This document shows positions 18,312 to 57,974 of a stretch of 64,000 bases of DNA, piece after piece. Where the stretch lies: the NCBI GenBank assembly GCA_018268835.1, contig JAFDVU010000003.1:1-64000 (forward strand). The letters are read 5' to 3'. A program made the translations under genes and the position numbers. The notes beneath the pieces were generated by a model. It was not told where the DNA came from. It searched no databases and saw only the letters and a list, made by a program, of their open reading frames with translations. Origin of the DNA: Acidobacteriota bacterium. Its GTDB lineage: Bacteria; Acidobacteriota; Terriglobia; Bryobacterales; Bryobacteraceae. Positions within the stretch are counted from its first letter, which is position 1. Every line of letters starts with the position of its first letter.

Positions 18312-19388
18312 GTGACAGACGAATCTTCCGAACGAGCCGACAGTCCCCGAACCTCCGGGGAATTGGTTCAAGAGTTTGAAGAGCTTTGCGAGCTGTTGTT
18401 CGATGCCGAAGGCTACAATCGCGTGGAGCCCTCAGGAAGGGCGACTCCGAGCACGCCGATTCAAAGCCCTGATCTACTTTTGCTCCATCGCGAATCCCGC
18501 GCTTTGGCAGTCGCGGAAGTAAAGCTGTACCGTTCCACAGTGATTTCGGTATCGCTCTTGCGAAACAGCCTCAATCAAGTTCAGGCATACCAGAAGCTGT
18601 ACAACGCGAGTGCGGGCTTTCTCATTATCAGTGTCCCGATTGAGCCTCGCCGTATCCGGCAAGCTGCTGTCGAATCGGGAGTCACAGTGTGGGATCTGAA
18701 GAAGTTGACGTCGATAGCAGCGCGCGATCCAACTCTCGGCGAGTTATTGTCCGACTTTATTCGGAGGGCGAGCATAGGCGTTCTTAGCAGCACGTCTCGT
18801 GCACTCACAGCAAACGAATCGCTATCGCTATCTCCGGAGATCGAAGCAAAGCACCGAATTGGCGGACAACTTATTCAAACCCTTGAAAATTGCCCTCCGG
18901 GCAAAGGAGCCTCCACAGAATTTGAGCGCGCATGTGGTGCCGCACTGCAATATCTCTTTGGAGAAGAGTTCGCAATGTGGAAGCCGCAGAATCAGGTGGA
19001 GGAAGGTTTCCACAGGATTGATCTTTTAGCTCGACTGGCTCCGCGGCATCAATTCTGGCTGGGACTCGCGCGGGATTTCAAAACGCGATACGTTGTATTC
19101 GAGTTTAAGAATTATTCGGAACCCCTCCCGCAGAACCAGATCTACACGACTGAGAAGTACTTGTTTCCGGCTGCTCTTAGGTCGGTGGCCATCTTAGTGG
19201 CCCGTGCGGGTATCGATAGTGGCGCTCGACACGCGATCAAAGGGGCACTGCGAGAATCCGGGAAGTTGATGATATGGATCACACTTCCCGAATTGATCAA
19301 CATGTTAAGGGACAAGGACGCCGGCAACGACCCCCATAATATGCTTTTCGATCGGGTAGACGAACTGCTCGTTGATCTGGCGCGCTGA
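18312..19388 (+). CDS. Protein with two PD-(D/E)XK nuclease-like domains (cargo gene)
   Basis: About 358 residues if started at GTG 18312; the same frame opens at 18171, but a promoter-like sequence lies at 18255-18283 and the first 47 residues look like leader. Two similar domains are visible. The first has Pro-Asp-(Leu)4 followed by V-A-E-V-K-L, the second has H-R-I-D-L-L followed by Y-V-V-F-E-F-K-N: in each an Asp, then Glu-x-Lys about 15-25 residues on, which is the PD-(D/E)XK core. The second copy is preceded by T-E-F-E-R. It is transcribed against the tail genes, between the hub and the M-like gene. Such nucleases occur in restriction and anti-phage systems; a superinfection-exclusion role is inference. 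Confidence 0.7.
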   Translation: MTDESSERADSPRTSGELVQEFEELCELLFDAEGYNRVEPSGRATPSTPIQSPDLLLLHRESRALAVAEVKLYRSTVISVSLLRNSLNQVQAYQKLYNASAGFLIISVPIEPRRIRQAAVESGVTVWDLKKLTSIAARDPTLGELLSDFIRRASIGVLSSTSRALTANESLSLSPEIEAKHRIGGQLIQTLENCPPGKGASTEFERACGAALQYLFGEEFAMWKPQNQVEEGFHRIDLLARLAPRHQFWLGLARDFKTRYVVFEFKNYSEPLPQNQIYTTEKYLFPAALRSVAILVARAGIDSGARHAIKGALRESGKLMIWITLPELINMLRDKDAGNDPHNMLFDRVDELLVDLAR

Positions 19389-33059: not shown

Positions 33060-33228
33060 GTTCGAGAATCCTCAGTTCTGCCGACCAGTCGTGTAACGCG
33101 AGGCAGAGGCCTTCGACGTCGGGGTGCCCGGCTCGCAGCAGGCGCTCCACCTCGGCGATCTCGGCATGGCAGCGGTCGATCTCACGCTGTAACTCGCTCG
33201 CCGGCGACGTCGGCGAAGGTCCGGCCAT
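32884..33228 (-). CDS. Small coiled-coil protein overlapping neighbours (possible)
   Basis: A frame from ATG 33228 gives 114 residues. Residues 10-60 look real: E-I-D-R-C-H-A-E-I-A-E-V-E-R-L-L, followed by H-P-D-V-E-G-L-C-L-A-L-H-D-W. The last ~55 residues, lying over the start of the GTG membrane gene, look less natural. It overlaps the methyltransferase end by 47 bp. It could be a genuine gene with a long overlap, or a frame whose natural end was lost. Confidence 0.45.
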   Translation of the reverse strand: MAGPSPTSPASELQREIDRCHAEIAEVERLLRAGHPDVEGLCLALHDWSAELRILERERALLSIPDSGERIDLRADRNLCRVAEPGSARGGPEGAGGTGEPYHHPDQRDVRPLG

Positions 33229-34435
33229 CTCCGTCGAGCGTAGCTTCGCGCCCGGTGAACTCCTGCCATCGGCGGATGATGACATCGCAGTATTTCGGCT
33301 CCAGTTCGATGAGCCGCGCCGTGCGGCCGGCCTTCTCGCACGCGATCAGCGTCGTGCCCGAGCCGCCGAACGGATCGAGCACCGTGTCGCGGCCCTTGCT
33401 ACTGTTGCGGATCGCGCGCTCCACCAATTCGACGGGCTTCATGGTCGGATGGAGATCGTTCGCGACCGGCTTCTTCACGAACCACACGTCGCCCTGGTCG
33501 CGGGCGCCGCACCAGAAATGATCCGTGCCTTCCTTCCAGCCGTAGAGGATCGGCTCGTACTGCCGCTGGTAATCCGCCCGGCCCATGGTGAAGGTGTTCT
33601 TGGCCCAGATGACAAACGTGGACCAGTGGCCGCCGGCCTCCCGGAACGCCTTCTCCAGCGTGTGCAACTCCGAGGACGACATGCAGATGTAGACCGCGCC
33701 CTTCGTGACCGCGAGGATGTTCACGCAGGCGTCGTACAAGAAGCGCTCAAAGTCGTCGCCCAGATTGTCGTTCGCGATCTTCCGCTTGTTGCCGCGGAGC
33801 TTGTCTTTCATCGTCGCGCCGTAGTTCACGTTGTAAGGCGGGTCGGTGAAGACCAAGTCGGCGAGACCGCCCGCGAGCACTTTCTCCACGGCGTCCATCT
33901 GGGTGGAGTCACCGCAGAGTAGACGGTGATCGCCGAGGAGCCATATGTCGCCAACGGCCGTGACCGCAGTCTCCTGCTCCTCGGGCACCGCATCATCGTC
34001 GGTGTTGCCTGCGGCCTGAACCGCTTCCGGGTCGATCAGTAGATCCGCGAGTTCGTCATCGGAGAAGCCGATGACGCTCAGGTCGTAATCGTCCTCGCGG
34101 ATGGCTTCGAGTTCGACGCGCAGCATCTCCTCGTCCCACCCCGCATTGAGCGCGAGGCGATTATCGGCGAGAACCAGCGCGCGCCGTTGGGTTTCGGTGA
34201 GGTGATCGAGGACGATGACCGGGACCTCGGTCTTGCCCAGTTTCCGTGCTGCCAGCAGGCGCGCGTGGCCGGCGATGATGATCCCATCGGACCCGGCGAG
34301 GATTGGGTTGGTCCACCCGAACTCGGCTATCGAGGCCGCGATCTGGGCAACCTGTTCGTCACTATGCGTGCGCGCATTCCGGGCGTAAGGGATCAGCCTT
34401 TCGACCGGCCACGTCACCACCTGCGGGAGGCTCAT
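33182..34435 (-). CDS. ParB-domain DNA methyltransferase (DPPY type)
   Basis: 417 residues from ATG 34435; an upstream in-frame start lies inside the preceding gene. Residues 8-130 are a ParB/Srx-like domain (I-I-A-G-H-A-R-L-L-A-A-R, about 54-65). A methyltransferase follows with D-P-P-Y (198-201) and F-G-G-S-G-T-T near 370, the order of beta-class amino-methyltransferases. D-P-P-Y favours N6-adenine. The ParB-like part probably guides DNA binding. It may modify phage DNA to escape host restriction. The second copy lies at 35358. It overlaps its upstream neighbour by 4 bp. Confidence 0.9.
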   Translation of the reverse strand: MSLPQVVTWPVERLIPYARNARTHSDEQVAQIAASIAEFGWTNPILAGSDGIIIAGHARLLAARKLGKTEVPVIVLDHLTETQRRALVLADNRLALNAGWDEEMLRVELEAIREDDYDLSVIGFSDDELADLLIDPEAVQAAGNTDDDAVPEEQETAVTAVGDIWLLGDHRLLCGDSTQMDAVEKVLAGGLADLVFTDPPYNVNYGATMKDKLRGNKRKIANDNLGDDFERFLYDACVNILAVTKGAVYICMSSSELHTLEKAFREAGGHWSTFVIWAKNTFTMGRADYQRQYEPILYGWKEGTDHFWCGARDQGDVWFVKKPVANDLHPTMKPVELVERAIRNSSKGRDTVLDPFGGSGTTLIACEKAGRTARLIELEPKYCDVIIRRWQEFTGREATLDGDGRTFADVAGERVTA

Positions 34436-34707
34436 GCGTTGTTGGGTTGAGCGGACTTCTGGAACAGACCGAGTGCGTTGTGCAGATCGACGATCTTTGC
34501 GATCATCGGCACGACTACCGCGACCAGCTTGTCCCAACTGAACTGTTTGGCCAGATCCGTGCTTCCGTCATAGGCGGACTTGAGCACGTCTAGCACGAGT
34601 TCCAGCTTCTTGTTTCCCTGGCCGGGCAGCGGGATCGCTTGCTCGACGGCCTGAACCGCCGCCAGAACCAGGGGGAAGATCTTGAGGATGATGAGCAGGG
34701 TGTTCAT
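34432..34707 (-). CDS. Small hydrophobic-N-terminus phage protein (91 aa)
   Basis: 91 residues with a hydrophobic N-terminal helix (L-L-I-I-L-K-I-F-P-L-V-L-A-A-V) and two amphipathic helices after it. It overlaps the methyltransferase start by 4 bp. Family unknown. Its size suits a holin-like or small membrane-associated protein; no lysis gene neighbours support this. Confidence 0.55.
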   Translation of the reverse strand: MNTLLIILKIFPLVLAAVQAVEQAIPLPGQGNKKLELVLDVLKSAYDGSTDLAKQFSWDKLVAVVVPMIAKIVDLHNALGLFQKSAQPNNA

Positions 34708-35357: not shown

Positions 35358-36842
35358 TCAGGCCGCGACTTCCACCCCGCGCGCGGCTGCTACTACTGGG
35401 AACGTTTCTCCGCTGGAGGCCAGCGCCGGCACGTCCCCGGTGAGGTGTTGGATTCGTTTCAGGATGACGTCACAATATGAGGGCGACAGTTCGCATCCGT
35501 AGCCGGTCCGGTCAAGAACGGCCGCGGCCGCCAAGGTGGTACCGGACCCCATGAACGGATCGAAGATCAGGTCGCCCGGATCGGAGAATGCTTTCACGAA
35601 GAACTCGACCAGCGCTCGCGGGAACGGAGCCGAGTGCGATCCCTGGCTGCTCTCGGTTTTGACCTCGATCACGTTCGACGGGCGGGCAATGCCTCCGTGG
35701 CGCCCCTCCATGTTGTTCGCGTTCCGGCGTGTGGTCTGCCACGCCTGCTGGTGCTTGCCGCTGTCTGCCGCCGCACCGCGCGGGCCCGTGCCAAGCAGGC
35801 CACTACCGGACGTCGACTTCGGGTTATTCGGCGAGTAGTCGAAGCAATCGTCCGACCAGTGGCCGACTTCCTTGGGCCGGAACTTTATCTTCTGCTGGCG
35901 CGAGAAGTGGAACACGGGCTCCCATGCGTTCTTGAACCGATTTCCCCAGCCTCCTGGCACGCCGTCGTCGGTTTTCCGCCAGCAGAATTCATCCACGAAC
36001 CGCCATCCCCAGTGCCGGCGATGCGCGATGGTCAGGTCCTTCACGTAAAGGTTGCGCTCGCCGTCGTCCGCGTGTTCCTTGATATTAAGGAGGTACGACC
36101 CATCGTCGGCGAGCACCGCCGCGAGGTTCGCGGCTACGTCCGCGTACCAGGCGACGTACTCCTCCGGCGGTACCGGTCGGAACCCGCTCGACGGATCGTA
36201 GGCGCGCTGCGAAGCGTAAGGCGGGGAAGTGATCACTACATTTGCCTTGGCGCTTTCGAACAGCCGTTCGACAACTCCGTGATCCCGGCAGTCCCCGCAG
36301 ATCAGCCGATGCGGGCCTATCACCCAGATGTCGCCCGGCCGCGTGACCGCCTCAGCCGGTTGTTCCGGTATTTCTTCTTCCGCTTCCGGTTGCGCGCTCT
36401 CGGTCGCTTCTTGAGTAAGCAGGCCTTCCAGTTCGGAATCGCTGAAGCCGGCCACGCCGAGGTCGAAGCCCTCAGCTTGGATGGCCGCCAGTTCTTCCCC
36501 GAGCAGTTCATCGTTCCACCCTGCGTTCAGCGCGAGGCGGTTGTCCGCGAGCACGTAGGCCCGCCGCTGTAGCGGAGTCAGGTGGCCCAGGACAATGACC
36601 GGGACTTCGGTAAGGCCAAGCATCCTCGCGGCCAGTAGTCGACCGTGGCCAGCAATAACGCCCGCTTCGGAATCCACGAGAATCGGATTCGTGAAACCAA
36701 ACTCGACAATGGACGCCGCGATCTCGGCGACCTGCTCCTCCGAGTGCGTCCGGGCGTTCCGTACGTAGGGCACGAGGCGGTCCAGCGGCCAGTGCTCCAG
36801 TTCCCGCGGCATCGCGGGTGTAATCGCAACGGGTTCGCTCAT
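35358..36842 (-). CDS. ParB-domain DNA methyltransferase (SPPY type)
   Basis: 494 residues. The first 145 residues are closely similar to the other ParB-methyltransferase here (shared A-R-T-H-S, E-F-G, T-N-P-I-L, I-A-G-H, A-D-N-R-L-A-L-N-A-G-W). S-P-P-Y lies at 206-209 and D-P-F-M-G-S-G-T-T near 445, so the target is probably N4-cytosine by the usual rule for S-P-P-Y. The catalytic domain is longer than its paralogue. The two enzymes together would give the phage two base modifications. The ATG overlaps the TGA of the Dcm relic. Confidence 0.9.
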   Translation of the reverse strand: MSEPVAITPAMPRELEHWPLDRLVPYVRNARTHSEEQVAEIAASIVEFGFTNPILVDSEAGVIAGHGRLLAARMLGLTEVPVIVLGHLTPLQRRAYVLADNRLALNAGWNDELLGEELAAIQAEGFDLGVAGFSDSELEGLLTQEATESAQPEAEEEIPEQPAEAVTRPGDIWVIGPHRLICGDCRDHGVVERLFESAKANVVITSPPYASQRAYDPSSGFRPVPPEEYVAWYADVAANLAAVLADDGSYLLNIKEHADDGERNLYVKDLTIAHRRHWGWRFVDEFCWRKTDDGVPGGWGNRFKNAWEPVFHFSRQQKIKFRPKEVGHWSDDCFDYSPNNPKSTSGSGLLGTGPRGAAADSGKHQQAWQTTRRNANNMEGRHGGIARPSNVIEVKTESSQGSHSAPFPRALVEFFVKAFSDPGDLIFDPFMGSGTTLAAAAVLDRTGYGCELSPSYCDVILKRIQHLTGDVPALASSGETFPVVAAARGVEVAA

Positions 36843-40668: not shown

Positions 40669-43600
40669 TCATGGCGGGTCTTTACCGCTCCCCGGCGTCA
40701 TGGCCGGCAGATCGGCGAGATCGATGCCGCCACCCCTTCCGGGGGGACGTTGGGGGGACGTCGTGGGAACCTGGTGGAGACGTTGCGATCCAAACGTCTC
40801 CACCGTTAAGTTGCTGTGTTTTGTATCGCTTGTGCGGGTGGTGGAGACGTTGGGGACGTTTTTGGGGTTTCCGGCGGCGGAATCCGCAGTGTTTTCACAC
40901 GCTGTCCCTTTCCTCTCTATATGCGCATCCTCGTGTATTTCTCTTGCGCGGGAATTGAGGAGAACGTCTCCACCGTCACCAACGTCTCCACCGTCGTTGT
41001 AGTCTGCTGATTCGATGGGACCTAAGTGGTGGAGACGTTTGTCGGCCAACGTCTCCACCACGTCTCCACCGCCCGGCTCGACGTCTCCACCGAGTGAATC
41101 CAGGAGGCTCAGGTTCGGCGGGCGATATTGGCCCGGTTTATCGCCGTCCGCGGGAACGAGAACGTAGAGAACGCCGGTCTTGTGGTTTCCTTCGCTGATG
41201 CGCTTGACTGTAAGCCCGTTGAATACGCGGTCGCGCTTCACGCCGAGCGCCTTGCCCAACCGCGTCTGTTGGGAGCGCGCCGCTCCATCGCCACGCACCC
41301 TGAGCATCAGGTCGCGATCCTCGCAGAGCTGATTCAGTTCACTGACGCGTTTCGGCTCATCCCGGAATGATTCCCACCAGGCACCAGTGAATTCCCGCCA
41401 CATCTGGCCATCGCTATCGGCAGCCGCGTAAAGCTCGTTCAGATTGCCGAGGAACCCTGGGATGCCCGCAACCTGCAGCACACCGCCGATTACCTCGGAC
41501 CATCTCTCGAAGGAACCGAGGCGGCGATCGTTGAGCGGGCGCCCGGCTGCAATCCAGGCTTGAATCAAAGTGAGCGCGGCGCGCACCAGCGCCGAACGGT
41601 TCTCCCGCGCCCATTCGGTGACCAGCGGGTGTTTGAATCCCGCTCGCAGCCATGGCCTGTCGATCCGTGGATCGATGCGGATACGAACGCACCGGCGGGT
41701 CATCTCATCCGAAAGCTGCGGATTATTGCCGGTCATCATCCAAAGCGCGTGGTTCTTCAGGTCGAGCATCCTGGAGATGCCCAGGATTCGATCCCTCCAG
41801 GCAGGCTGAGTGATCACCGAGGCCAGCGCCGAGGAGTCCAACATTCGTTTTTCGTTGAGATTGTCGATTAGGATTGTGGGGCGGCCGTTTATCAATTCCG
41901 CCGTGATCATCTTCCGGATATCGTCCTCATCTTCCGGCAGCGTGCGACCTTCCGGAGCCGCACCGGTCGTGACGATCCCGATCAGACTCGCCAGCAGCCC
42001 CTTCCCGGATCCTTGCGTCGGCGCTTCGATGAGGTGTATCGGCGCACAACCTTCGACCATGCGGCGCATGAACGGCAAGAGAATAGCCGCGACGACGTGC
42101 GCCTGGTCTGAGTCCCTGACAAACGGGAAATCGACGAGCAGGTCATCAACGAGCAATGACCGGGCATGTGCGATCTCTTCGCCCGTAGGGCAGCTCGGGA
42201 CCTCTCCAATCTCAAGGGCTGGGTCGGAAAAGAGCCACACTGCATCCGCACGATGGTAACCAGCGGTAGCGATGAGGGCGCCGTCGCGGCCAAACATCGG
42301 CGTTCGAACCACGGATTCGAGCGGCGGCAAGGCGAAATCCGGGTTGACCAGCATATCGCGCGCCGTGTCCCGCGACGGTGGAGCGGCAAGCACGGCCGCC
42401 TCCGTCACCTTGTGCCAGTTGGCGCTTCGGGCCAGAATCCCGTAGACCGACGTCTCGCAGTGCGGCTCGATTCTCGCATTGGCGCCCTCGCCTGCAATGC
42501 GCATGAGAGTGCCGGCCTTTTGAAAGAGGAACGGCCTGGCCGTATCGCCCGGGGCCGGTTCGTTGATGGCGTGAATGGCAGCCCAGGAGTCGGCGATTAC
42601 ATCGCGCAATTGGCGGTTGTTCACCTGGATGCCCGGAAGTGACTGATCCTGCGTTTCCCCGCCGCGCTCCATTGCGGCCGCGCCGGCACGCCGGTTCAGC
42701 CGTGGCCGCGCAATCTCCACTACCTTCAGTTGCCTCCGCAACGTGGTGACGGGCACGCGGACCTTGCCGCATCGAGTTTGGATAAGCCTGAGGTGACGTT
42801 CCTGTTCGATCGGATCGAGCCGGCCGGCCTCGGCCAGGATGGGCTCGAGAAAGCGGCTGAGCGCAGCGTCCGGGGTGTCTATGCTCAGCCGCGAAATCGC
42901 CAGCTCGAGCGGCGTCTGCGCGGCGTCGAGAATCGCTTCGAATTCCGCCTCCGTTTTGCCACTCGCGAAGAACTCGTTTACGTCGATCTTGGCGTCGGCG
43001 AGCAGTTCATCCGTCCCGGCACTCTGCGCGCCCAAGGCAGCCAGCTTCGCGCGTGCGACCCGCTGCTTATCACCGAGAGGTAGAACCGCAACCCGCGTCG
43101 CAATGCCGTGATCCGCCAGGACACGGGCGGTCTTGAGCGCTCCCTGCATGCCGGCCTCTGAGATCTCGTTGTCCTGGCAGATGAAGACGGTCTTCACGCC
43201 GGCGAGTTTTGGCAGCAGCCGCTCCCAATCTGCTTCCCGAATCTGCACCGTCACCGGCGAGACGGCGGGGAATCCATGCTCCATGAGGGAGAGACAATCG
43301 GTGACGCCCTCGGTGATGACGACGCGTCCCGGACGGGTCAGGAGCGCGTCCTCGTTGTAGAGAACGTCGTTCCGAATACATTCCGCAACGTGCTCGTTGT
43401 TGCGCCCATTCCTGACGGCGAGCTTCTTGTACTTCGATTTCTCCCATTCGTGATCGGCTGTCCAGGGCGTGCGCCGGCCGATCATGAACACTACGCGCCC
43501 GCGGCTCCAATACGGAAATACGATCCGCCCGTCGAAGAACGGTACGATGCCATCCTGCGCCGTCGGCCGAAATACGGAGGTAGCGGTCAAATCCCGCATC

Positions 43601-44190
43601 GTGAACGCGCCGGGCCCATCCATCAGAGTCCGCGCTAAGCCGGGCTCGCCGTTGTCGGCATAGCCGATCTTCAGTCGTGCGATCGTCTCCTCGCCAATGC
43701 CGTACTTCGTCCGGAACCAGCTGAGGACTTCGCCATTCGCAATCAGACGCTGGTGATACGCCTCGGCGATCGCAGTTAGGGTTTCCCGCACGCGCAGCGA
43801 GGATCGGTACGATTCCTCAGCTTCTTCCGGGCTGGCTAATTTCGAGAGCGGCGGCAACCCGATTCGCGCCGCCAGGAAGTCGCGCGCCGAACGGTGCGAT
43901 TCCGGCATGCGGCCGGACTGCCCACGCGTCACTACGCCATGGTGAACAAACTCGACAAGCTGAAGGACGTCGCCCCCAACACCACATCCCCAGCAGCACC
44001 AGCACTGTTCCTCAAGCGAAACATGCAGCGAACGGTGGGACTGGCTCGCATGATTCGGGCAATCGCAGAAGAGCGTTTGCCGCGATTCCTGCATAATCCT
44101 GGCGCCCAGCAACTCGCGGGCGATCTCGCCAATGTCGATGTCCGTGACCTGGCGATAGTAGCTGTGCACATCAGCGGGTGCCGCGGTCAC
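40669..44190 (-). CDS. Primase-helicase replication protein
   Basis: 1173 residues, GTG start in a GTGA overlap with the helicase gene. The N-terminal zinc-binding region has C-D-C-P-N-H (42-47) and C-W-C-C-W-G-C (63-69), like CHC2 primases. A Toprim domain follows, with V-I-T-E-G-V-T-D (near 280-300) and the acidic F-I-C-Q-D-N-E. The helicase/ATPase part has A-P-T-Q-G-S-G-K-G and a later L-I-D-N-L-N. The last ~100 residues are low-complexity and encode the iterons. It should synthesise primers and unwind the phage DNA. The cluster of iterons in its own 3' end is like the lambda O arrangement. Confidence 0.9.
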   Translation of the reverse strand: MTAAPADVHSYYRQVTDIDIGEIARELLGARIMQESRQTLFCDCPNHASQSHRSLHVSLEEQCWCCWGCGVGGDVLQLVEFVHHGVVTRGQSGRMPESHRSARDFLAARIGLPPLSKLASPEEAEESYRSSLRVRETLTAIAEAYHQRLIANGEVLSWFRTKYGIGEETIARLKIGYADNGEPGLARTLMDGPGAFTMRDLTATSVFRPTAQDGIVPFFDGRIVFPYWSRGRVVFMIGRRTPWTADHEWEKSKYKKLAVRNGRNNEHVAECIRNDVLYNEDALLTRPGRVVITEGVTDCLSLMEHGFPAVSPVTVQIREADWERLLPKLAGVKTVFICQDNEISEAGMQGALKTARVLADHGIATRVAVLPLGDKQRVARAKLAALGAQSAGTDELLADAKIDVNEFFASGKTEAEFEAILDAAQTPLELAISRLSIDTPDAALSRFLEPILAEAGRLDPIEQERHLRLIQTRCGKVRVPVTTLRRQLKVVEIARPRLNRRAGAAAMERGGETQDQSLPGIQVNNRQLRDVIADSWAAIHAINEPAPGDTARPFLFQKAGTLMRIAGEGANARIEPHCETSVYGILARSANWHKVTEAAVLAAPPSRDTARDMLVNPDFALPPLESVVRTPMFGRDGALIATAGYHRADAVWLFSDPALEIGEVPSCPTGEEIAHARSLLVDDLLVDFPFVRDSDQAHVVAAILLPFMRRMVEGCAPIHLIEAPTQGSGKGLLASLIGIVTTGAAPEGRTLPEDEDDIRKMITAELINGRPTILIDNLNEKRMLDSSALASVITQPAWRDRILGISRMLDLKNHALWMMTGNNPQLSDEMTRRCVRIRIDPRIDRPWLRAGFKHPLVTEWARENRSALVRAALTLIQAWIAAGRPLNDRRLGSFERWSEVIGGVLQVAGIPGFLGNLNELYAAADSDGQMWREFTGAWWESFRDEPKRVSELNQLCEDRDLMLRVRGDGAARSQQTRLGKALGVKRDRVFNGLTVKRISEGNHKTGVLYVLVPADGDKPGQYRPPNLSLLDSLGGDVEPGGGDVVETLADKRLHHLGPIESADYNDGGDVGDGGDVLLNSRAREIHEDAHIERKGTACENTADSAAGNPKNVPNVSTTRTSDTKHSNLTVETFGSQRLHQVPTTSPQRPPGRGGGIDLADLPAMTPGSGKDPP
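40773..41091. repeat. Iteron cluster, probable replication origin
   Basis: Nine copies of GGTGGAGACGTT (or its complement) lie at 40773-40784(+), 40793-40804(-), 40840-40851(+), 40963-40974(-), 40981-40992(-), 41028-41039(+), 41048-41059(-), 41060-41070(-, one mismatch or 11 of 12) and 41080-41091(-, 11 of 12). They encode different peptides according to frame and strand (G-G-D-V, V-E-T-F/L, R-L-H-Q/H, N-V-S-T), so the DNA rather than the protein is conserved. The AT-rich stretch at about 40890-40945 lies inside the cluster and could be the melting site. Replication origin is inference. Confidence 0.75.
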
Positions 44191-46379
44191 TTCCTGGTCT
44201 CCGGTTGGAGCAGGAAGGAGAGAAAGGTGTTCCGGCGATCAACCTGGCGCTTCTCTGCACAGTTCTCCATGCCCCACCGATCCCCCAGCAGGATCACGGA
44301 TTCCTTCGCGCGCGTTACTGCCGTGTACAGGAGGTTGCGGTGATGCATGAAGGAGTGCGATTTGTGGGCGACCACAACGGCGCACGGGAACTCCGACCCC
44401 TGCACCTTGTGAATCGATGTGGCATACGCCAACTGGACATTGCTGGCCGCTTCACTGGCGGCCTTGATCTCTACCGGGCGGCCATCGAAGTCGATGGTCA
44501 TCGCCCCATCGCGTTCCACGCCGAGGACCACACCCATCGCGCCGTTCATGACACCGAGGTCATAGTCGTTCTTCGTCTGGATCACCTTGTCGCCCGTGTA
44601 GAAGCGGTGCCGGTGCCCGGCTTCGATCTCGGGCACTTCGAAGTCGAAGAGCTTTTTCTGAAGCAACCGCTGAAGCTCTACGTTGAGCTCTATGGTGCCG
44701 AGAGGCCCCCTGTGCGTGGGCGTCAATACCTGTACGTCGCAAATCAGGTCGTAGCCGAGCCGCTCCTGCAACACCTCGTCGAACAGGAGCAACAGCATGC
44801 GCCGCACGTCGCCGGTGTCCGTGAACCGGTCGATCACATACCATGGCCGGCGGTCGCCATTCTTCACATCCGCGGTCGGCCGCACCTCGCCGGACAGAAT
44901 GGCGGTCGAGTTCTCTTTGAGCACGCCTGCCTGCCGGATGATCTGGGTGAGTACGGTCGTCGGAATCGCGCGCGACTTCACCAGGTCGCGGAGAAGATTG
45001 CCCGGCCCGACCGGCGGCAACTGATTATGGTCACCGACAAGGACGACGGCAGTCTTCGATCTGTCAATGGCCTGAAACAGTCGCCACGCGAGCGGCACGT
45101 CCACCATCGAGACTTCGTCCACCACAAGGATGTCCGCCTCGATCGGGTTGAGCGCATCACGGGAATATGTGCTCCCGTTGTAGCCCAGCAGACGGTGGAT
45201 CGTACTGGCCTCGTGTCCCACGACCTGTTCCAGCCGCTTGGCGGCCTTGCCAGTGGGTGCGGCCAGGACCACGCGCTTCTCCAGGAGGTTGCCGATGGTG
45301 GTGATCGTTGAGACGGCATACGTCTTTCCGCTCCCGGCGCCCCCGGTCATCAGCGAGATGGCACACGCGAGCGCGTTCTTCACGGCCGCCCTCTGCTCCG
45401 GGTTCAGTTCCGGGCCTTCCGCGTCGAGCAAACCTTCGACATCCGCGATCACGTGTGGGCTTCGCGATCCAGCCGTCTGCAACACATCGGCCAGATCCCG
45501 CTCTATGCGGTGGATCTCCGGATCGGCAACTACCAGACGTTCAAAGGGATGGCTGACGAGCAGGCCCTCGGCGATCAGCGCCTCCAGATGGCCCTCGATC
45601 ACTTCCCGGCTATCGAGCGTGTCCATCACGAGCAGGTTGTTGGCGCGGTCGAGGAGGTCCTCGTATTCAACCCAGCAGTCGCCGCCATCCAGTGCGTCGA
45701 GCACGCAGTAGTGAATCCCGGCGCGAATGCGCGAAGGCAGATCTTTGGGCGTGCCCATCTTGCGGGCGATCTTATCGACGCGTTTGAATCCAAAACCTGA
45801 GATCTCGCGCATCAGCACGTAGGGATCGCGTTCGAGAATCGGCACCACCTGGCTGCCGAACCGGTCCACCAGAGTCGTGACCTGGTGATGGGTCAATCCG
45901 AACCGCGACAGATAGGTCATGGCTGCGTTGAAATCGCTGTTGGCCATCCAGATACGCTGAAGCGCCAGAATCGAGTCCAGCGGAGCCTTCGCGGCGGTCG
46001 CGACCGCTTCGGGCCGGGTCCGGATCGCCGCGTCAAAGCCGGCGCCAAACTCAACCGCAATGAGCCGGGCCTTGGCCGGACCGATCCCTTTCACGTCCGG
46101 ATGGTTCGCGAGGAAGTTCGCCAGCCCATCGGCGTCCATCTCCAGGTCGTAACCAAGGCATTCAACCGAGAACTGGCGCCCGTACTTGGGGTGATTCATC
46201 CACAGGCCTTCGAAGCGCACCGGGTCGTTGGGCTTCGCGAAGACCTTGCCAGCGAAGTTCACCAGCGCGCCTTCCGCCGTTCGAAGGCGCCCGGCAGTAA
46301 ATGCCGGGCCCGAGTAGAAGACCGTTTCCACGATGCCGCGGAGGGAGGTGCGCGTCTCCGCGGTTGCTACCTTCGTCAT
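44187..46379 (-). CDS. RecD2-like DNA helicase
   Basis: 730 residues from ATG 46379; a longer frame to 46577 runs back through the end of the ERCC4 gene and is disfavoured by the ATGA overlap with that gene. An N-terminal helix-hairpin-helix region has V-K-G-I-G-P-A-K-A-R. Then come Walker A G-G-A-G-S-G-K-T, L-V-V-D-E-V-S-M-V-D (Walker B) and further SF1 motifs (L-V-G-D-H-N-Q-L-P-P-V-G-P-G, T-P-T-H-R-G-P-L-G, T-S-I-H-K-V-Q-G-S-E). It resembles RecD2 and would process DNA in replication or recombination. Confidence 0.9.
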   Translation of the reverse strand: MTKVATAETRTSLRGIVETVFYSGPAFTAGRLRTAEGALVNFAGKVFAKPNDPVRFEGLWMNHPKYGRQFSVECLGYDLEMDADGLANFLANHPDVKGIGPAKARLIAVEFGAGFDAAIRTRPEAVATAAKAPLDSILALQRIWMANSDFNAAMTYLSRFGLTHHQVTTLVDRFGSQVVPILERDPYVLMREISGFGFKRVDKIARKMGTPKDLPSRIRAGIHYCVLDALDGGDCWVEYEDLLDRANNLLVMDTLDSREVIEGHLEALIAEGLLVSHPFERLVVADPEIHRIERDLADVLQTAGSRSPHVIADVEGLLDAEGPELNPEQRAAVKNALACAISLMTGGAGSGKTYAVSTITTIGNLLEKRVVLAAPTGKAAKRLEQVVGHEASTIHRLLGYNGSTYSRDALNPIEADILVVDEVSMVDVPLAWRLFQAIDRSKTAVVLVGDHNQLPPVGPGNLLRDLVKSRAIPTTVLTQIIRQAGVLKENSTAILSGEVRPTADVKNGDRRPWYVIDRFTDTGDVRRMLLLLFDEVLQERLGYDLICDVQVLTPTHRGPLGTIELNVELQRLLQKKLFDFEVPEIEAGHRHRFYTGDKVIQTKNDYDLGVMNGAMGVVLGVERDGAMTIDFDGRPVEIKAASEAASNVQLAYATSIHKVQGSEFPCAVVVAHKSHSFMHHRNLLYTAVTRAKESVILLGDRWGMENCAEKRQVDRRNTFLSFLLQPETRK

Positions 46380-46822
46380 GCATGCCACCTCGTGTGTGCG
46401 GCCAGCAGGTACGCCTGTACGAAGTGGCAGGCAGCCTGCCGGCTGGAACAGAAGAAAACCGGAACGCGGAAATCGAGAATGATCGATAAAGCGCTGCCGA
46501 CCACGGCGTTCGGATGGGCATCGCCGCGGTATCGGTGCAGCAGCACTTCCAGGAGACCCGCCTCGACCACGACACATGCCGCCCGGTACTCGGCCAGCTT
46601 CCGCAGTTCCTTGCGAAAGCGAGCCCGGCTGTGAATCACCGTCGATACGAAGTCCTCGAGGCTCTTGCGCTCCACGGCCACGATGTTTTCCAGCCCGGCG
46701 ACGGAGTAATCCCCGGCCGGCAGCGCGCGCCGCACCGTCGCCAGCCGGGAATCGAATGAATAGCCTTCCTGTTCGCGCGTGTCGATGACGATCGTGACCG
46801 GTCCCGCGTTAGAACGGGACAA
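46376..46822 (-). CDS. ERCC4-type nuclease
   Basis: 148 residues, starting at TTG inside the end of the DUF669 gene; no other good start is available. The motifs I-D-T-R-E-Q, G-D-Y-S-V and V-E-R-K-S-L-E-D are the metal-binding core of the ERCC4 (XPF) nuclease domain. It lacks the helicase and helix-hairpin-helix parts of XPF. It probably cuts branched DNA in phage recombination or repair. It lies between the DUF669 gene and the helicase, overlapping both. Confidence 0.85.
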   Translation of the reverse strand: MSRSNAGPVTIVIDTREQEGYSFDSRLATVRRALPAGDYSVAGLENIVAVERKSLEDFVSTVIHSRARFRKELRKLAEYRAACVVVEAGLLEVLLHRYRGDAHPNAVVGSALSIILDFRVPVFFCSSRQAACHFVQAYLLAAHTRWHA

Positions 46823-47267
46823 GGGCGTCGCCGGCCTCCTGCCGGAACTTGCCGGGCGTGCGGTCCGTCTCGATGCGGCGGTTGAAGAAGATGTTTTCGT
46901 TCTCGCCCTTCGTCTTCTTAGTGACTTCGAGCTTCACGTCGAGCAGTTTCTTCAGGTGCTTCGGCAGATCGGAGATCCTGTCGAGGTCCAGGCCGCACAT
47001 GTGGAGGTCGGTCTTCACGTACTTCAGCGTGTTGTGGGTAATGACGCTGTTGCGCCAGATGAGGCGGTTAATGAACTTCGGCGCGATCACACGCAGGGTC
47101 CACTTCAGCATCGGGTTCCCGGTGGACTGCGCCTCCGTCAACTCGACCTTCTCCACCGCTACCTGATACTTGCCGTCAGGTACGCTTTCAAAATCGCCGC
47201 GCTCTTCCGGCTGCTCGGAACGGTAGTCGTCGTCAAACTGCGACAGGTCAATTGCACGTTTGCTCAT
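46809..47267 (-). CDS. DUF669 protein
   Basis: 152 residues. The start follows AGGAG within AGGAGAAAAACAGT. The motif G-K-Y-Q-V-A-V-E-K-V-E-L, the central L-K-W-T-L-R-V-I and the N-terminal D-D-Y-R-S-E match DUF669. In phages this family is usually next to the RecA-like ATPase and recombination nucleases, and is suspected to bind single-stranded DNA. That context holds here. The exact role is not established. Confidence 0.85.
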   Translation of the reverse strand: MSKRAIDLSQFDDDYRSEQPEERGDFESVPDGKYQVAVEKVELTEAQSTGNPMLKWTLRVIAPKFINRLIWRNSVITHNTLKYVKTDLHMCGLDLDRISDLPKHLKKLLDVKLEVTKKTKGENENIFFNRRIETDRTPGKFRQEAGDALVPF

Positions 47268-47289
47268 ACTGTTTTTCTCCTGTTGGATT

Positions 47290-48030
47290 TCACTTCGCCG
47301 CCGGCCTGGCTGTGGGCTGCGGCTTCAGCGGCGCGACCGCCGCATTGAATGCGTCGAGGAACTTCCGGAAGTCAAGATCGATGGTCTCGGGGAGGCGGCC
47401 GGTCCGGTCGCCCGCTTCGTAGTAAAGGCTGGGCTTGGTGCGGATCACGCGCTTGATACTCTCGGCGCCGCCCTCGGCGGTGGCCGTTTCCAGATCGCAG
47501 AACAGCACCTGATCCACCATGCCCAGGACGATCTTGCGGGCCTTGTCGGGCAGCGTCGGCACGATCCGGGTGTACTTGCCCGTGCGCGTGTCCACTTCGA
47601 TCTCCTTGGCGTGAGAAATCAGGAAGAGGCCATACGGCAGGAACGCGAGCTTGGTCAGCACCCGCTGGAATTCATTGTTCACGAGGGCGTACCCCTTGCC
47701 GTAGCCGAGGTCCGATTCGTGCTCGATCTTGTACTTCTTGACGATGTAGTCCGTGCAGAACTTGTATGCGTTGTCGATAGTGTCGACGATGATGGTTCGG
47801 AACGCGTGCTTTCCCTCCGTCACTTCGGCGCAGGCGTTGAGTAAGTCATCCCAGGATTGAATCGGCACCTGATAGACATCGAGTGCGTTCAGGCCGGGCT
47901 CGGTGGCGAGGAACAGCGCGCCGTCGGACTGGGAGCAGAATGTGGATTTCCCGATTTTCGTTTGGCCGTACACCAGCACCGTGAGGTCGGCCAGGTCGGG
48001 CTTGGGTTGTGTCTTTGCGGTCGGCAGCAT
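47290..48030 (-). CDS. RecA-like phage ATP-binding protein
   Basis: 246 residues from ATG 48030, which follows AAGGAG. Walker A is G-Q-T-K-I-G-K-S-T near 24-32; Walker B is probably R-T-I-I-V-D-T-I-D near 80-88. This is the phage nucleotide-binding ATPase type found with DUF669, Cas4-like nuclease and RecD-like helicase in Sak4-type recombination modules. Sak4-like function (strand annealing or exchange) is inference. Confidence 0.8.
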   Translation of the reverse strand: MLPTAKTQPKPDLADLTVLVYGQTKIGKSTFCSQSDGALFLATEPGLNALDVYQVPIQSWDDLLNACAEVTEGKHAFRTIIVDTIDNAYKFCTDYIVKKYKIEHESDLGYGKGYALVNNEFQRVLTKLAFLPYGLFLISHAKEIEVDTRTGKYTRIVPTLPDKARKIVLGMVDQVLFCDLETATAEGGAESIKRVIRTKPSLYYEAGDRTGRLPETIDLDFRKFLDAFNAAVAPLKPQPTARPAAK

Positions 48031-48041
48031 AATTCTCCTTT

Positions 48042-49058
48042 TCAAAAAACTGTTTCTGGCGCCTCGTTCGGCAGCACCCTCAATTCCTCGTTGGGCGCGA
48101 CCCGCTGGTAGAAGTTCTCGATCACGTTGGGATTCCCGTTGGAACGACACAGCGGGAAGTAGGCGCACGGACGCTGATAGTTAAAGCAAAACGCGGTGTT
48201 CTGGTAGAAGACCCCGCGGCGCCGGGCGTCGAGGAACGCCTGCGTCAACTCCCACAGTTCACTGCGGAGGACGTCGAAGCGGTCCCGCGAAAGGTACAGC
48301 ATCTCCCGGTGGAACATCTCCGAATCGGCGTATTTCTCCGCCAGTCGCAGCTGGAACTCATCGTCGGACTCCGGCAGCTTGCGCTTGGCCGTGGTCTTGC
48401 CGGTTTTCGATTTCGCCAGCAACTCCGCGCGCCGGGCCTGGTACTCCTCCTCCGTCTCGCCCTTGCCCTGCTGGAGCTTCGCCTTCACGAGCACGTTGTA
48501 GAGGATCCCGGTGATCGGGATGCCCATCGTCTGCTCGATGTAATGGGCGTAGATGGTGATCTGGAAGTCGGTCCAGAGCTTCTCCAGGTAATCCCCATCG
48601 AGCTGGCCGGCGGTTTTGTGTTCGAGGATGAAGTAGTCGTCGCCGATGCGCACGACGCCATCCACCTTGCCGGCGAGAACGAAGCTGCGGGATGCGGCGC
48701 CGGTGGCCGGGTTGATGATCGGGCCCTCGAAGTTCTTCTCCAGGGCGACAATCTCGAAGTTGTCACTCGCGTACCGCCGCGCGTACGCCTTCATCAGGGC
48801 GGTGGCCAAATGCCAGTCACGGCGCTGGTTCTCGTCCTGAAGATGCTCCGGACAAAGGCGATTGATGAGCGCCAGGATCTCCTGGAGGTCCCGCCGCTGA
48901 TGCCATGCCTGGAGGCATTCGTGGATGATCGCGCCGAAGTGCAGGTTCCGGTCGCGTTCGAGCGGGACCAGATGCTGGAGGTAGCGCAGTTCCACCGCTT
49001 TCCGGCAGTTCCGGAAGAGCGACCACATGGAGTAGGTAGAGACGAGTGGCTGTGTCAT
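48042..49058 (-). CDS. PD-(D/E)XK nuclease, Cas4/AddB-like
   Basis: 338 residues from ATG 49058 (the track extends further into the ParB-like gene). The motif G-K-V-D-G-V-V-R-I-G-D-D-Y-F-I-L-E-H-K-T-A gives the Asp, Glu and Lys of the catalytic core. An N-terminal Cys and C-terminal cysteines (C-F-N-Y-Q-R-P-C-A-Y-F-P-L-C) could hold an iron-sulfur cluster, as in AddB and Cas4. It is probably a DNA-end-processing exonuclease in the recombination module. It overlaps the ParB-like gene by 4 bp. Confidence 0.85.
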   Translation of the reverse strand: MTQPLVSTYSMWSLFRNCRKAVELRYLQHLVPLERDRNLHFGAIIHECLQAWHQRRDLQEILALINRLCPEHLQDENQRRDWHLATALMKAYARRYASDNFEIVALEKNFEGPIINPATGAASRSFVLAGKVDGVVRIGDDYFILEHKTAGQLDGDYLEKLWTDFQITIYAHYIEQTMGIPITGILYNVLVKAKLQQGKGETEEEYQARRAELLAKSKTGKTTAKRKLPESDDEFQLRLAEKYADSEMFHREMLYLSRDRFDVLRSELWELTQAFLDARRRGVFYQNTAFCFNYQRPCAYFPLCRSNGNPNVIENFYQRVAPNEELRVLPNEAPETVF

Positions 49059-50074
49059 AGGGAGTTTGCTCCGGGTGCGACCAGTCTCCGTGTCCGTCTG
49101 CCCGAGTTGATGTGGTCGACGATCAGCCTGCTCAGTACACCGATGCTCGAACTGTTGCACGCCATCGCACGGACACTGGGATCGCTGAGGCCGAACTGGG
49201 CGATCTTCTTCTGCATGTCGCGCTCGATACGGAGCGTGCTCCCGGACCAGAACGTCGGATAACCGGAAATCACGTCCGCAAGCGCGAAGAGGAATCCGGA
49301 TTTCAGGTGCGTGGCCCGATCCTTGTAAAGGATGTTGCGGATGCCCCAGGCTTCATCCAGGAACTCAAAAAATGCCTTGACGTTATCCGGCATCGTGACC
49401 AGGCCGACCTTGGCCATCATGGGCGGCAACGCTTGCCAGATCGCAGGCAGCGCGACATAGCGTCCCGCGCCGAACGCTGAATGGAGCCGCATGACCGTCT
49501 TGACGAACGACAGCGCCGTTATCAGCTCTTCCCGCCGCATGTACTGCGACCAGGAAACCCGCTGGTGCAGAGCGAACGATTCGTCGTTGCAGAGGTCGTG
49601 GAGCCGGCGAAGCGCGGAGCACTGGACCACACGATTCCGGAGCAGCACGTTCGGTGAGAGCCGGGTTCTTCGCAGGTTGAGGATGTCGAACCGCTCCCGC
49701 TCCCAGGTTTCCGTCGTCCCGAAGTGCACCATGGCGCCGACCAACGGGGTTCCGCCGTTCGTCGCAAACTCTCTGGCGGCACTGATCCGCTGGAGGCCAT
49801 CGATGATGTACACGTCGCCTGTGATCGTGTATATGCCGTTCGAATCCGTGCACCCGTAATCTTCACCGCGGGCTGCGAGTTCGACATCGGGCACGCGCCC
49901 CGCCCCATCCCGGAATGCTTGCATCAGCCCGTCGATCGTGGCGGTTCGAAGCGTCTCGCGTTGGTAGTCCGGCTTGAGCAAGCCGCTTAGCGACGCGGGA
50001 TCGATTACCCCGCGCAGTACAATCCGGCCCGGCGTGAGTTCATCCAGGGCGCCGGACAGCAGTCGTAGCGTCAT
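49055..50074 (-). CDS. ParB-like / DGQHR-type protein
   Basis: 339 residues from ATG 50074. The motif V-Y-I-I-D-G-L-Q-R-I-S-A-A-R-E-F (about 88-103) is the ParB/Srx or DGQHR-type core. Helical parts follow (about 200-330). It overlaps the next gene by 4 bp. It probably binds phage DNA, or has a nuclease- or CTPase-like core; its function is not known. It is one of four ParB-like domains in this prophage. Confidence 0.7.
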   Translation of the reverse strand: MTLRLLSGALDELTPGRIVLRGVIDPASLSGLLKPDYQRETLRTATIDGLMQAFRDGAGRVPDVELAARGEDYGCTDSNGIYTITGDVYIIDGLQRISAAREFATNGGTPLVGAMVHFGTTETWERERFDILNLRRTRLSPNVLLRNRVVQCSALRRLHDLCNDESFALHQRVSWSQYMRREELITALSFVKTVMRLHSAFGAGRYVALPAIWQALPPMMAKVGLVTMPDNVKAFFEFLDEAWGIRNILYKDRATHLKSGFLFALADVISGYPTFWSGSTLRIERDMQKKIAQFGLSDPSVRAMACNSSSIGVLSRLIVDHINSGRRTRRLVAPGANSL

Positions 50075-50913
50075 GAGTTCTTCTCCTGAATTTCCAAACG
50101 GAATGCGTTCAGCGGGTCGGCTGCGACCGCCTTTCCCTCGATCTCCGCACTGGCGGCGGAAATGGCCTGGCTGACGTTGGCCAGCAACTGTTCCGCGTAT
50201 TCGAATTCGCCGGCAGTCTCGCCCAGCCATCCGGCCAGGTGGGCGAGGTGCTTTGTGGCCTCAATAAACGAGAGAATCGACCGGGTCATCCGCTCGATCT
50301 TTTCCGCCCGCGCAGTTCTTCGCGTACGCGCAGCCGCCGGATCTGGAGACGCAGCCTTCGCTTCCATCGCCGTCTGGGCCTGTTCCGGCGGAGGGGCCTT
50401 GCCGATCCTCGTGATGTCGATCGTCCGCCCGTCGCGTCCCTTGCGCTTCGGCGACTGTGGAATTTCCATAGTCAACTTCGTCCGCCAGTTCCCGACCGTC
50501 TTCACGTCGACGCCGACGTGAGCAGCAAGCTGGTGGTCGCTGAGAGTGCCGGCATTGGTGTGGGTCAGCGCCGCTCTTACCGCCCGCTGTTTATCTCTGT
50601 TCGTGCGGCGGAGGCCGTTAGCTTTGTTTGCGCCGAAGCTGTACCACAGCGCGTCCTGCTTTGTGCCCTGGTACACCTCGCACGCGATAACGCCGTGTCC
50701 GGCGTTTTCGGCGGCCTGAATCCGATGGAAGCCATCCGCAAGCCAGTAGTCGGTGCCGTCGTAGAACACGACCACGGGCGGGAATTCCGCGCCGGCGGCC
50801 ATGCTCGCCATGTAATCGGAGACCGCTTCCCGATTGATGGCGGCCCGCGGCTGCGTGCCGCCATCCCGCCGGATGCCGGAGATGGGGACCGATTGCGAGT
50901 CAGTCACACGCAC
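50071..50913 (-). CDS. ParB-like nuclease-domain protein
   Basis: 280 residues. The ParB-type domain has P-P-V-V-V-F-Y-D-G and W-L-A-D-G-F-H-R-I-Q-A-A (57-68). A helix-turn-helix follows (S-D-H-Q-L-A-A-H-V-G-V-D-V-K-T-V). The rest is a basic linker and a helical C-terminal part. This domain set resembles plasmid and phage ParB proteins that bind DNA and regulate or segregate. The DNA for T-M-E-I-P contains a near copy of the palindrome at 36851. It overlaps the sigma-like gene by 14 bp. Confidence 0.8.
   Translation of the reverse strand: MRVTDSQSVPISGIRRDGGTQPRAAINREAVSDYMASMAAGAEFPPVVVFYDGTDYWLADGFHRIQAAENAGHGVIACEVYQGTKQDALWYSFGANKANGLRRTNRDKQRAVRAALTHTNAGTLSDHQLAAHVGVDVKTVGNWRTKLTMEIPQSPKRKGRDGRTIDITRIGKAPPPEQAQTAMEAKAASPDPAAARTRRTARAEKIERMTRSILSFIEATKHLAHLAGWLGETAGEFEYAEQLLANVSQAISAASAEIEGKAVAADPLNAFRLEIQEKNS
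50453..50473. repeat. Near copy of the 36851 palindrome inside the ParB-like gene
   Basis: GACTGTGGAA-T-TTCCATAGTC differs from the site at 36851-36871 at one base, and the match runs into both flanks for about 23 bases. Here it is coding (T-M-E-I-P-Q). Confidence 0.65.

Positions 50914-56038: not shown

Positions 56039-56058
<20 letters not shown>
55651..56058 (-). CDS. HTH-like protein of the integration module (135 aa)
   Basis: 135 residues overlapping the 3' end of the recombinase by 20 bp. The segment D-Y-A-D-L-A-R-L-G-C-L-T-R-E-R-M-S-Q-I-M-E-L resembles a helix-turn-helix. Proteins of this kind accompany serine recombinases of this type. It could help in excision or regulate the recombinase. 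Confidence 0.7.
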
Positions 56059-57461
<1,403 letters not shown>

Positions 57462-57472
<11 letters not shown>

Positions 57473-57974
57473 GCCGCGCCTCCTTGTCGACCCCGAAGAA
57501 AGCGAAACCGTTCCAGTGGGTACCGGTGATCGCGGCGGCGATGTTGCTGAGCGATTTGTACCGCCGACCTTCATATTCGAAGGCGTCATCGAGAACCTTC
57601 ACGACCAGCGTGCGGTCCTTGTACTTCTTCACGATCAGGCTTCCCGGCATCGGCAGCCGCGCGTCCCGGATCTGGACGACCGTGCTCATCAACGCCTGAT
57701 CGGCAGGTATCTGGGGCTGGCGCTTCGAGAGGTTCTCCGTGATTCTGACCCGCAACGGTACCTCGCGGGCGATAGCGATCGCGCGTTGCCGCACCACCTC
57801 CGGAAGGCCGCCCTCCTTTTCTGCCTGGAGGTGCCAGGCAATCTTCCGCCGGAGGTGCTGGCAGTTTGCGATTGGGTGCTCCGCGCCGAACAGCAGGCGA
57901 TGGACCGCCTGCAATTGCGCCGCGTTCAATCTGGGCAGATCCGCGATGGCCGGCAGCGGGCGCTCTTTCCTCAT
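57462..57974 (-). CDS. DUF2924 protein
   Basis: 170 residues. The central to C-terminal part matches DUF2924: G-S-L-I-V-K-K-Y-K-D, V-K-V-L-D-D-A-F-E-Y-E-G-R-R-Y-K-S-L-S-N-I-A, G-T-H-W-N-G-F-A-F-F-G. This gene is usually just upstream of serine recombinases. A role in regulating or helping recombination is likely but not known. Confidence 0.9.

Follow-up and report, generated by a model that had tools for sequence, protein, structure and literature searches.

The end of a primase-helicase gene in an acidobacterial prophage carries a short motif repeated many times in both orientations, which raises the question whether the repeats serve the protein or the DNA, and what such DNA would do. The original prediction took the array for a probable phage replication origin. 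We followed this up in the window, i.e. the whole stretch of 64,000 nucleotides (64 kb) that was analysed, and in relatives of the gene from other genomes. Our answer is that the array is very likely the replication origin of the prophage, and that the primase-helicase encoded across it is the initiator.

Iterons at the end of the primase-helicase gene

The primase-helicase gene (40669-44190, minus strand) is an open reading frame of 1173 amino acids with Pfam matches to the CHC2 zinc finger, DnaG N-terminal and Toprim domains, and with PHROG matches to the DNA primase and DNA polymerase/primase families. The array occupies its last ~150 codons, so that the earlier placement inside the primase gene was correct as to the overlap but not as to the gene body, as the array sits at the 3' end. 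Nine copies in both orientations had been reported, and we recovered all of them at 40773-41091, seven being exact copies of GGTGGAGACGTT and two having one mismatch. With up to two mismatches allowed, the 64-kb window contained 21 matches compared to 6.0 +/- 2.8 in shuffled sequences, of which 0 of 100 reached 21. No further clustered copies of the unit were present elsewhere in the window, and seven of the ten exact occurrences of the 12-mer in the 7.46 Mb assembly were inside the array. Based on the 10-bp core TGGAGACGTT with at most two mismatches, 12 sites were counted from 40742 to 41089. As had been predicted, the sites are read in different frames; they use both orientations and all three codon phases, giving GGDV, VETF or VETL, RLHQ or RLHH, and NVST or NVPN.

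The sites form two mirror-image half-arrays, a feature that the original prediction had overlooked. On the gene strand, and measured from start to start, the layout is > 21 > 11 > 18 < 49 > 9 > 9 > (112) < 9 < 49 > 18 < 33 <, in which the two halves mirror each other. Counted on the sequence, half-module A (40963-41091) has distal sites at 41080-41089, 41059-41068 and 41048-41057, an inverted site at 41030-41039 and proximal sites at 40981-40990, 40972-40981 and 40963-40972. Half-module B (40742-40860), counted in the same way, has proximal sites at 40851-40860 and 40842-40851, an inverted site at 40793-40802 and distal sites at 40775-40784 and, in degenerate form, 40742-40751. GC skew around the array showed no switch and was uninformative.

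The element is a full-size prophage with genes for a tape measure, a minor tail protein, a head protease, a portal and both terminase subunits, and it has a serine recombinase gene at 56039-57589. Upstream of the primase-helicase gene, a replication and recombination cassette (44187-50913) encodes a RecD2-like helicase, an ERCC4 nuclease, a DUF669 protein, an AAA_24 ATPase, a PD-(D/E)XK nuclease and ParB-like proteins. Two prophage genes at a short distance from each other, at 33182-34537 and 35358-36842, resemble fusions of a ParB-like domain with a DNA methyltransferase, the first by a PHROG match and the second as judged from its sequence.

Conservation of the array in relatives

Thirty-odd close relatives, taken from Acidobacteria MAGs and IMG/VR viral contigs, carried an array in the same place and with the same layout. 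Their units were different, e.g. TGGGGACGTT, GGGGAACGTT, TGGGGACCTT and TGGGGATGTT, with GGCGGACCTC, TCGGGATCTT, TGGGGATCTT, GCGGTACCTT and others in further relatives. Each gene had its own unit, and a change of unit was common to nearly all copies within that gene, i.e. it was concerted. The peptide tracked the unit, as in GDVGDV, GNVGNV and GDLGDL, or in PNVPNV, PHVPHV and PKVPKV. The proposed check, whether relatives keep the iteron rather than the peptide, showed that the 12-mer itself was not kept, and that what was kept is an array of a private unit with the same geometry. In the family this geometry consists of two mirrored half-modules of about six iterons each (mode six, usually five to seven sites per half), facing each other across about 50-115 bp. 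Where the arm between the inverted and the proximal sites differed in length, it usually did so equally in both halves (56/57 in L064, 39/39 in L065 and 59/58 in L055), with L052-L054 (49/60) as the exception.

The array was also found outside the reading frame. In L052, L054 and L097 a stop codon right before the array puts all of it outside the coding sequence, with the geometry retained; in L059 the stop codon falls inside the array, and in the distant helicase relatives L107, L110 and L115 the array is again non-coding. In total it was wholly non-coding in seven relatives and partly so in two more, and on a tree of 79 relatives its coding state switched at least five times. The expectation that DNA and not peptide is conserved was thus borne out, as the peptide follows the unit and the array is kept as non-coding DNA when a stop precedes it.

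Substitutions pooled over 24 pairs of near relatives gave synonymous differences per site of 0.353 for the helicase, 0.265 for the non-iteron part of the tail and 0.118 for the iteron codons, the last value being one third of that of the helicase. The corresponding pN/pS ratios were 0.11, 0.58 and 0.83. Based on these figures we conclude that the iterons are constrained as DNA, and that amino-acid selection on the remainder of the tail is weak. A tail that stays open up to a conserved tip, together with the pN/pS of 0.58 outside the iterons, which implies some amino-acid selection, is what would be expected if the repeats were selected as a peptide, namely a low-complexity GGD/VETF tail, and the paired inverted sites could form a series of mRNA hairpins. 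We consider both forms of this explanation extremely improbable, since copies of the unit stand in every codon phase and either orientation, the synonymous constraint is strongest exactly in the iterons, arrays persist beyond a stop codon, changes of the unit track the DNA-binding helix described below, and direct repeats spaced by 9 bp on one strand would be useless for a hairpin.

In the tail alignment, the tip GIDLADLP (40705-40728, minus strand), which follows the array, is conserved as [IV]DLAxLP in most of the clade of our phage, and another clade has the tip PDWLRELDP. As the tail thus has a conserved, clade-specific tip, the read-through product probably matters too. In the second large clade, consisting of viral contigs L149-L195, the arrays are mostly coding, the arm measures 37 bp and the tails have PDWLRELDP at their end. 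The tail of L129 ends in DDSDLPF, a sequence similar to the C-terminal tip of an SSB.

The module is not universal, since some relatives lacked a downstream array. There was none downstream of the helicase gene in L063, L066 and L105, none downstream of the related helicase of a Cereibacter plasmid, and none was detected downstream of the related helicases of the large phages Ruegeria phage RpAliso (L212) and Caulobacter phage C1 (L213), whose origins may lie elsewhere. In pCM32 repeats were present in a different arrangement. VapE-like helicase genes that share the N-terminal primase half of our gene but have another helicase (L033, L035 and L040) had two-sided non-coding iteron arrays downstream, and in two of these three loci long alternating tracts were seen.

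The initiator and its recognition of the iterons

The primase part of the protein, with the zinc finger, DnaG-N and Toprim domains, covers residues ~36-376 (43063-44085, minus strand) according to the Pfam domain positions. With AlphaFold2 and Foldseek, an AAA+ helicase part with a D5/SaPI-Rep-like fold was predicted for residues ~517-945 (41356-42642, minus strand), followed by a C-terminal winged-helix-like domain at residues ~946-1013 (41152-41355, minus strand), which the models and the covariation mark as probably iteron-binding. AlphaFold2 modelled the helicase and the winged helix confidently (pLDDT 90). The best PDB matches in Foldseek were NrS-1 PrimPol, SaPI5 PriRep1, ASFV PrimPol and D5 (6lrb, 7ola, 7pds, 8iqi and D5), with E values of 1e-7 to 1e-6 and moderate TM-scores of about 0.4-0.5, and a sequence-level search of the PDB with the primase-helicase gave no match. 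The models thus place the putative initiator among the AAA+ primase-helicases of the D5/SaPI-Rep fold. A fold search with the winged helix alone gave no significant PDB match, and the DNA-binding domain of P4 alpha was absent from its matches; for this reason we term the domain winged-helix-like only.

Sequence comparison showed a strong covariation of the unit with the C-terminal winged helix of the Rep-type helicase, and we conclude that the iteron binder is very probably this domain of the helicase itself. When unit positions were scanned against the residues of the winged helix by mutual information, base 7 and residue 976 (T976; 41263-41265, minus strand) came out as the top pair. Base 7 was T when residue 976 was V or I, and C when it was T or S, in 34 of 34 relatives, in which residue 976 was the only one among ~497 that predicted base 7 perfectly; all four independent changes in this first set were concordant. 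In a larger set, collected afterwards, new units with T at base 7 carried I at 976, and one weakly registered unit carried M. Both sets together gave agreement in 78 of 78 relatives, with M joined to the hydrophobic class only after it had been seen, and in eight of eight independent pairs (p = 0.0078) on a tree from which the winged helix had been left out. A hydrophobic side chain facing the methyl group of thymine would be chemically sensible.

The covariation of base 8 with residue 980 (K980; 41251-41253, minus strand) was less strict, with p = 0.008-0.016 for a class chosen post hoc, and is a tendency rather than a rule. When bases 7-8 were first split into classes against residue 980, the small tree offered too few independent pairs, and support came from the larger tree only. 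Residues 976 and 980 are separated by one turn of the predicted recognition helix (residues 971-984; 41239-41280, minus strand), a helix in both models.

These results bear on the possibility that another phage protein binds the array, as a site of partition, packaging or recombination; the ParB-like genes and TerS of the same prophage would supply candidates. The unit, however, covaries position by position with the recognition helix of the helicase itself, the window is without other clustered copies, and pWTY27, a non-phage homologue, uses the same layout as its origin, which makes such a site highly improbable.

A homologous origin in plasmid pWTY27

The RepA protein of the Streptomyces plasmid pWTY27 is homologous to the helicase (tblastn from L184, E 1e-58; profile 246 bits). 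As we read them, its repeats are > 11 > 16 < 40 > 9 > centre < 9 < 40 > 16 < 11 <, i.e. the array has the same layout as in our phage and lies directly 3' of the gene, right after the repA stop codon. The 300-bp non-coding sequence after repA is needed for replication, an inner piece of 149 bp being insufficient; RepA binds the sequence after repA specifically, with DNase I protection at 405-447 and 462-509; and replication is bidirectional (BMC Microbiol 2012, PMC3583192). Converted by us to distances from the stop codon, the footprints lie approximately at +112 to +216, where they take in the proximal pairs and the margins of the centre. The authors proposed a folded-back stem-loop with five RepA molecules, and not two iteron half-modules (PMC3583192). 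In contrast to our phage, the plasmid has a non-coding array and a separate prim-pol gene (RepB) as primase, and is not a full prophage.

The predicted origin function is supported by a homologue of the same layout that is an experimentally shown origin, and with pWTY27 as the reference we regard it as well supported, while for our phage itself it is inferred. In another explanation the array is an operator or silencer, through which the helicase or a phage repressor regulates transcription through the gene end, with no replication start. The covariation fits an array bound by its own gene product in this case also, and autoregulation by initiators at their iterons is established for plasmids. 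This explanation is nevertheless very unlikely, as the array, whether coding or not, occupies the 3' end of the gene rather than a promoter, and as its symmetric geometry of two halves and a centre recurs in pWTY27, where replication of the plasmid itself depends on it, and is of the same type as in the P4 ori and the PICI origin.

The centre and a model for initiation

Between the half-modules of the putative origin lies a centre (40861-40962) that we propose as the melting region. The AT-richer stretch reported at 40890-40945 is real (GC 0.45 compared to 0.62 for the gene), but over all its 102 bp the centre is just mildly AT-rich (GC 0.54). It contains a short alternating purine-pyrimidine tract of 11 bp, TATATGCGCAT, at 40918-40928 (shuffle p 0.04). 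Over the centres of the family the mean GC profile showed a modest dip only, and many had a GC-rich alternating tract in the middle. Strictly alternating purine-pyrimidine runs averaged 20.2 in 77 centres, which are not independent of one another, and reached up to 52 bp; gene windows gave a mean of 6.3 and shuffled sequences one of 6.5. The centres are hence more distinctive for the alternating tract than for A+T. Alternating tracts of this kind tend to form Z-DNA and contain many flexible pyrimidine-purine steps, which leads us to suggest, tentatively, that they may serve as the unwinding element. Long tracts in the middle of the origin were seen for example in L184, L137, L145 and L148, the 52-bp maximum being in L145, and in one coding clade the central tract is translated as THxHARARAH-like peptides. 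In the literature searched, which covered only a minority of subscription journals, no listed paper linked iterons to Z-DNA or to alternating tracts in replication origins.

We propose that the winged helices of one primase-helicase hexamer would bind each half-module of about six iterons, and that two hexamers would then face each other over the ~100-bp centre, open it and load onto opposite strands for bidirectional replication, with primers laid by the Toprim domain of the same protein. Direct iteron binding, one hexamer per half-module and melting at the centre are inferred. Initiator and origin would move as a single cassette, and in the clade of our phage the frame would run through the origin, giving a tail of ~150 amino acids that ends in the conserved tip.

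If so, one can read origins from sequence throughout a large helicase family of phages and plasmids, finding the unit, its copy number and the array geometry where a single gene ends, and can predict the recognition residues of the initiator. The family would provide matched pairs of initiator and origin, a natural series in which origin specificity can be studied, and would open the stoichiometry of six sites per hexamer to direct testing. The locus is also an example of a probably essential cis-element wholly overprinted by protein code, and the alternating centre bears on how self-loading hexameric helicases open duplex DNA, GC-rich origins included.

Comparison with known replication modules

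The original prediction drew a parallel with lambda, where the iterons, four in number, lie in the middle of the initiator gene O. The O protein is neither helicase nor primase, and needs lambda P and the host DnaB. The parallel holds as an analogy, but the closer relatives are the rep-ori modules of P4, PICI/SaPI and pWTY27, and a lambda O-type origin was rejected, the gene being a primase-helicase and not that of an O-like protein.

In the Pri-Rep-ori modules of PICI/SaPI, the initiator is a primase-helicase whose C-terminal domain recognises iterons, and a melting region just 3' of rep has a set of iterons on either side (PMC6092414, PMC7581432). Our phage resembles them in the fold of the initiator, which matches SaPI5 PriRep1 (7ola, 7pds), and in having a pair of iteron sets, separated by a ~100-bp centre, where the gene ends, although in our phage these sets overlap the coding sequence and the primase is of the DnaG/Toprim type instead of the AEP type of SaPIs. 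With its tape measure, tail, portal, head protease and terminase genes the prophage was not assigned to the PICI satellites. The E. coli PICI EcCICFT073 (L217) has two half-modules after the pri-rep gene, at about 19010-19235; it shares the half-module with our phage, but there the two are back to back and non-coding, whereas in our phage they are face to face.

For P4 (NC_001609, L218) we examined the repeats at 4291-4590 and 9310-9413. The type 1 repeats of its ori, > 10 > 11 > 22 < 43 > 10 >, correspond to one half-module of six, and crr, several kb from ori, contains partial half-modules. P4 is thus like our phage in having a primase-helicase initiator (alpha) and the half-module, and unlike it in that the partner half-sites are in crr several kb away and the alpha gene is not overlapped.

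Taken together, one broad reading would be that a module of six iterons per hexamer is common to P4, PICIs, actinobacterial plasmids and many phages, which differ only in the placement of the two modules; that in this superfamily the strands open at a conserved alternating purine-pyrimidine tract, Z-DNA-prone and flexible, and not at a classical AT-rich element; that the frame of the initiator has repeatedly been extended over, and withdrawn from, the whole origin; and that recognition follows a code of two residues and two bases. We advance this reading as a whole tentatively, giving it slightly less than an even chance. As far as the literature was searched, the embedding, the specificity code, the shared half-module and the central alternating purine-pyrimidine tract are new. 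As pWTY27 has the same layout and the P4 ori and the E. coli PICI origin use the half-module, the array is very probably a P4/PICI-type origin overprinted by the gene of its own initiator. It would belong to an already known kind, the rep-ori of P4, PICI and pWTY27, of which the overprinting by the reading frame of the initiator is the variation.
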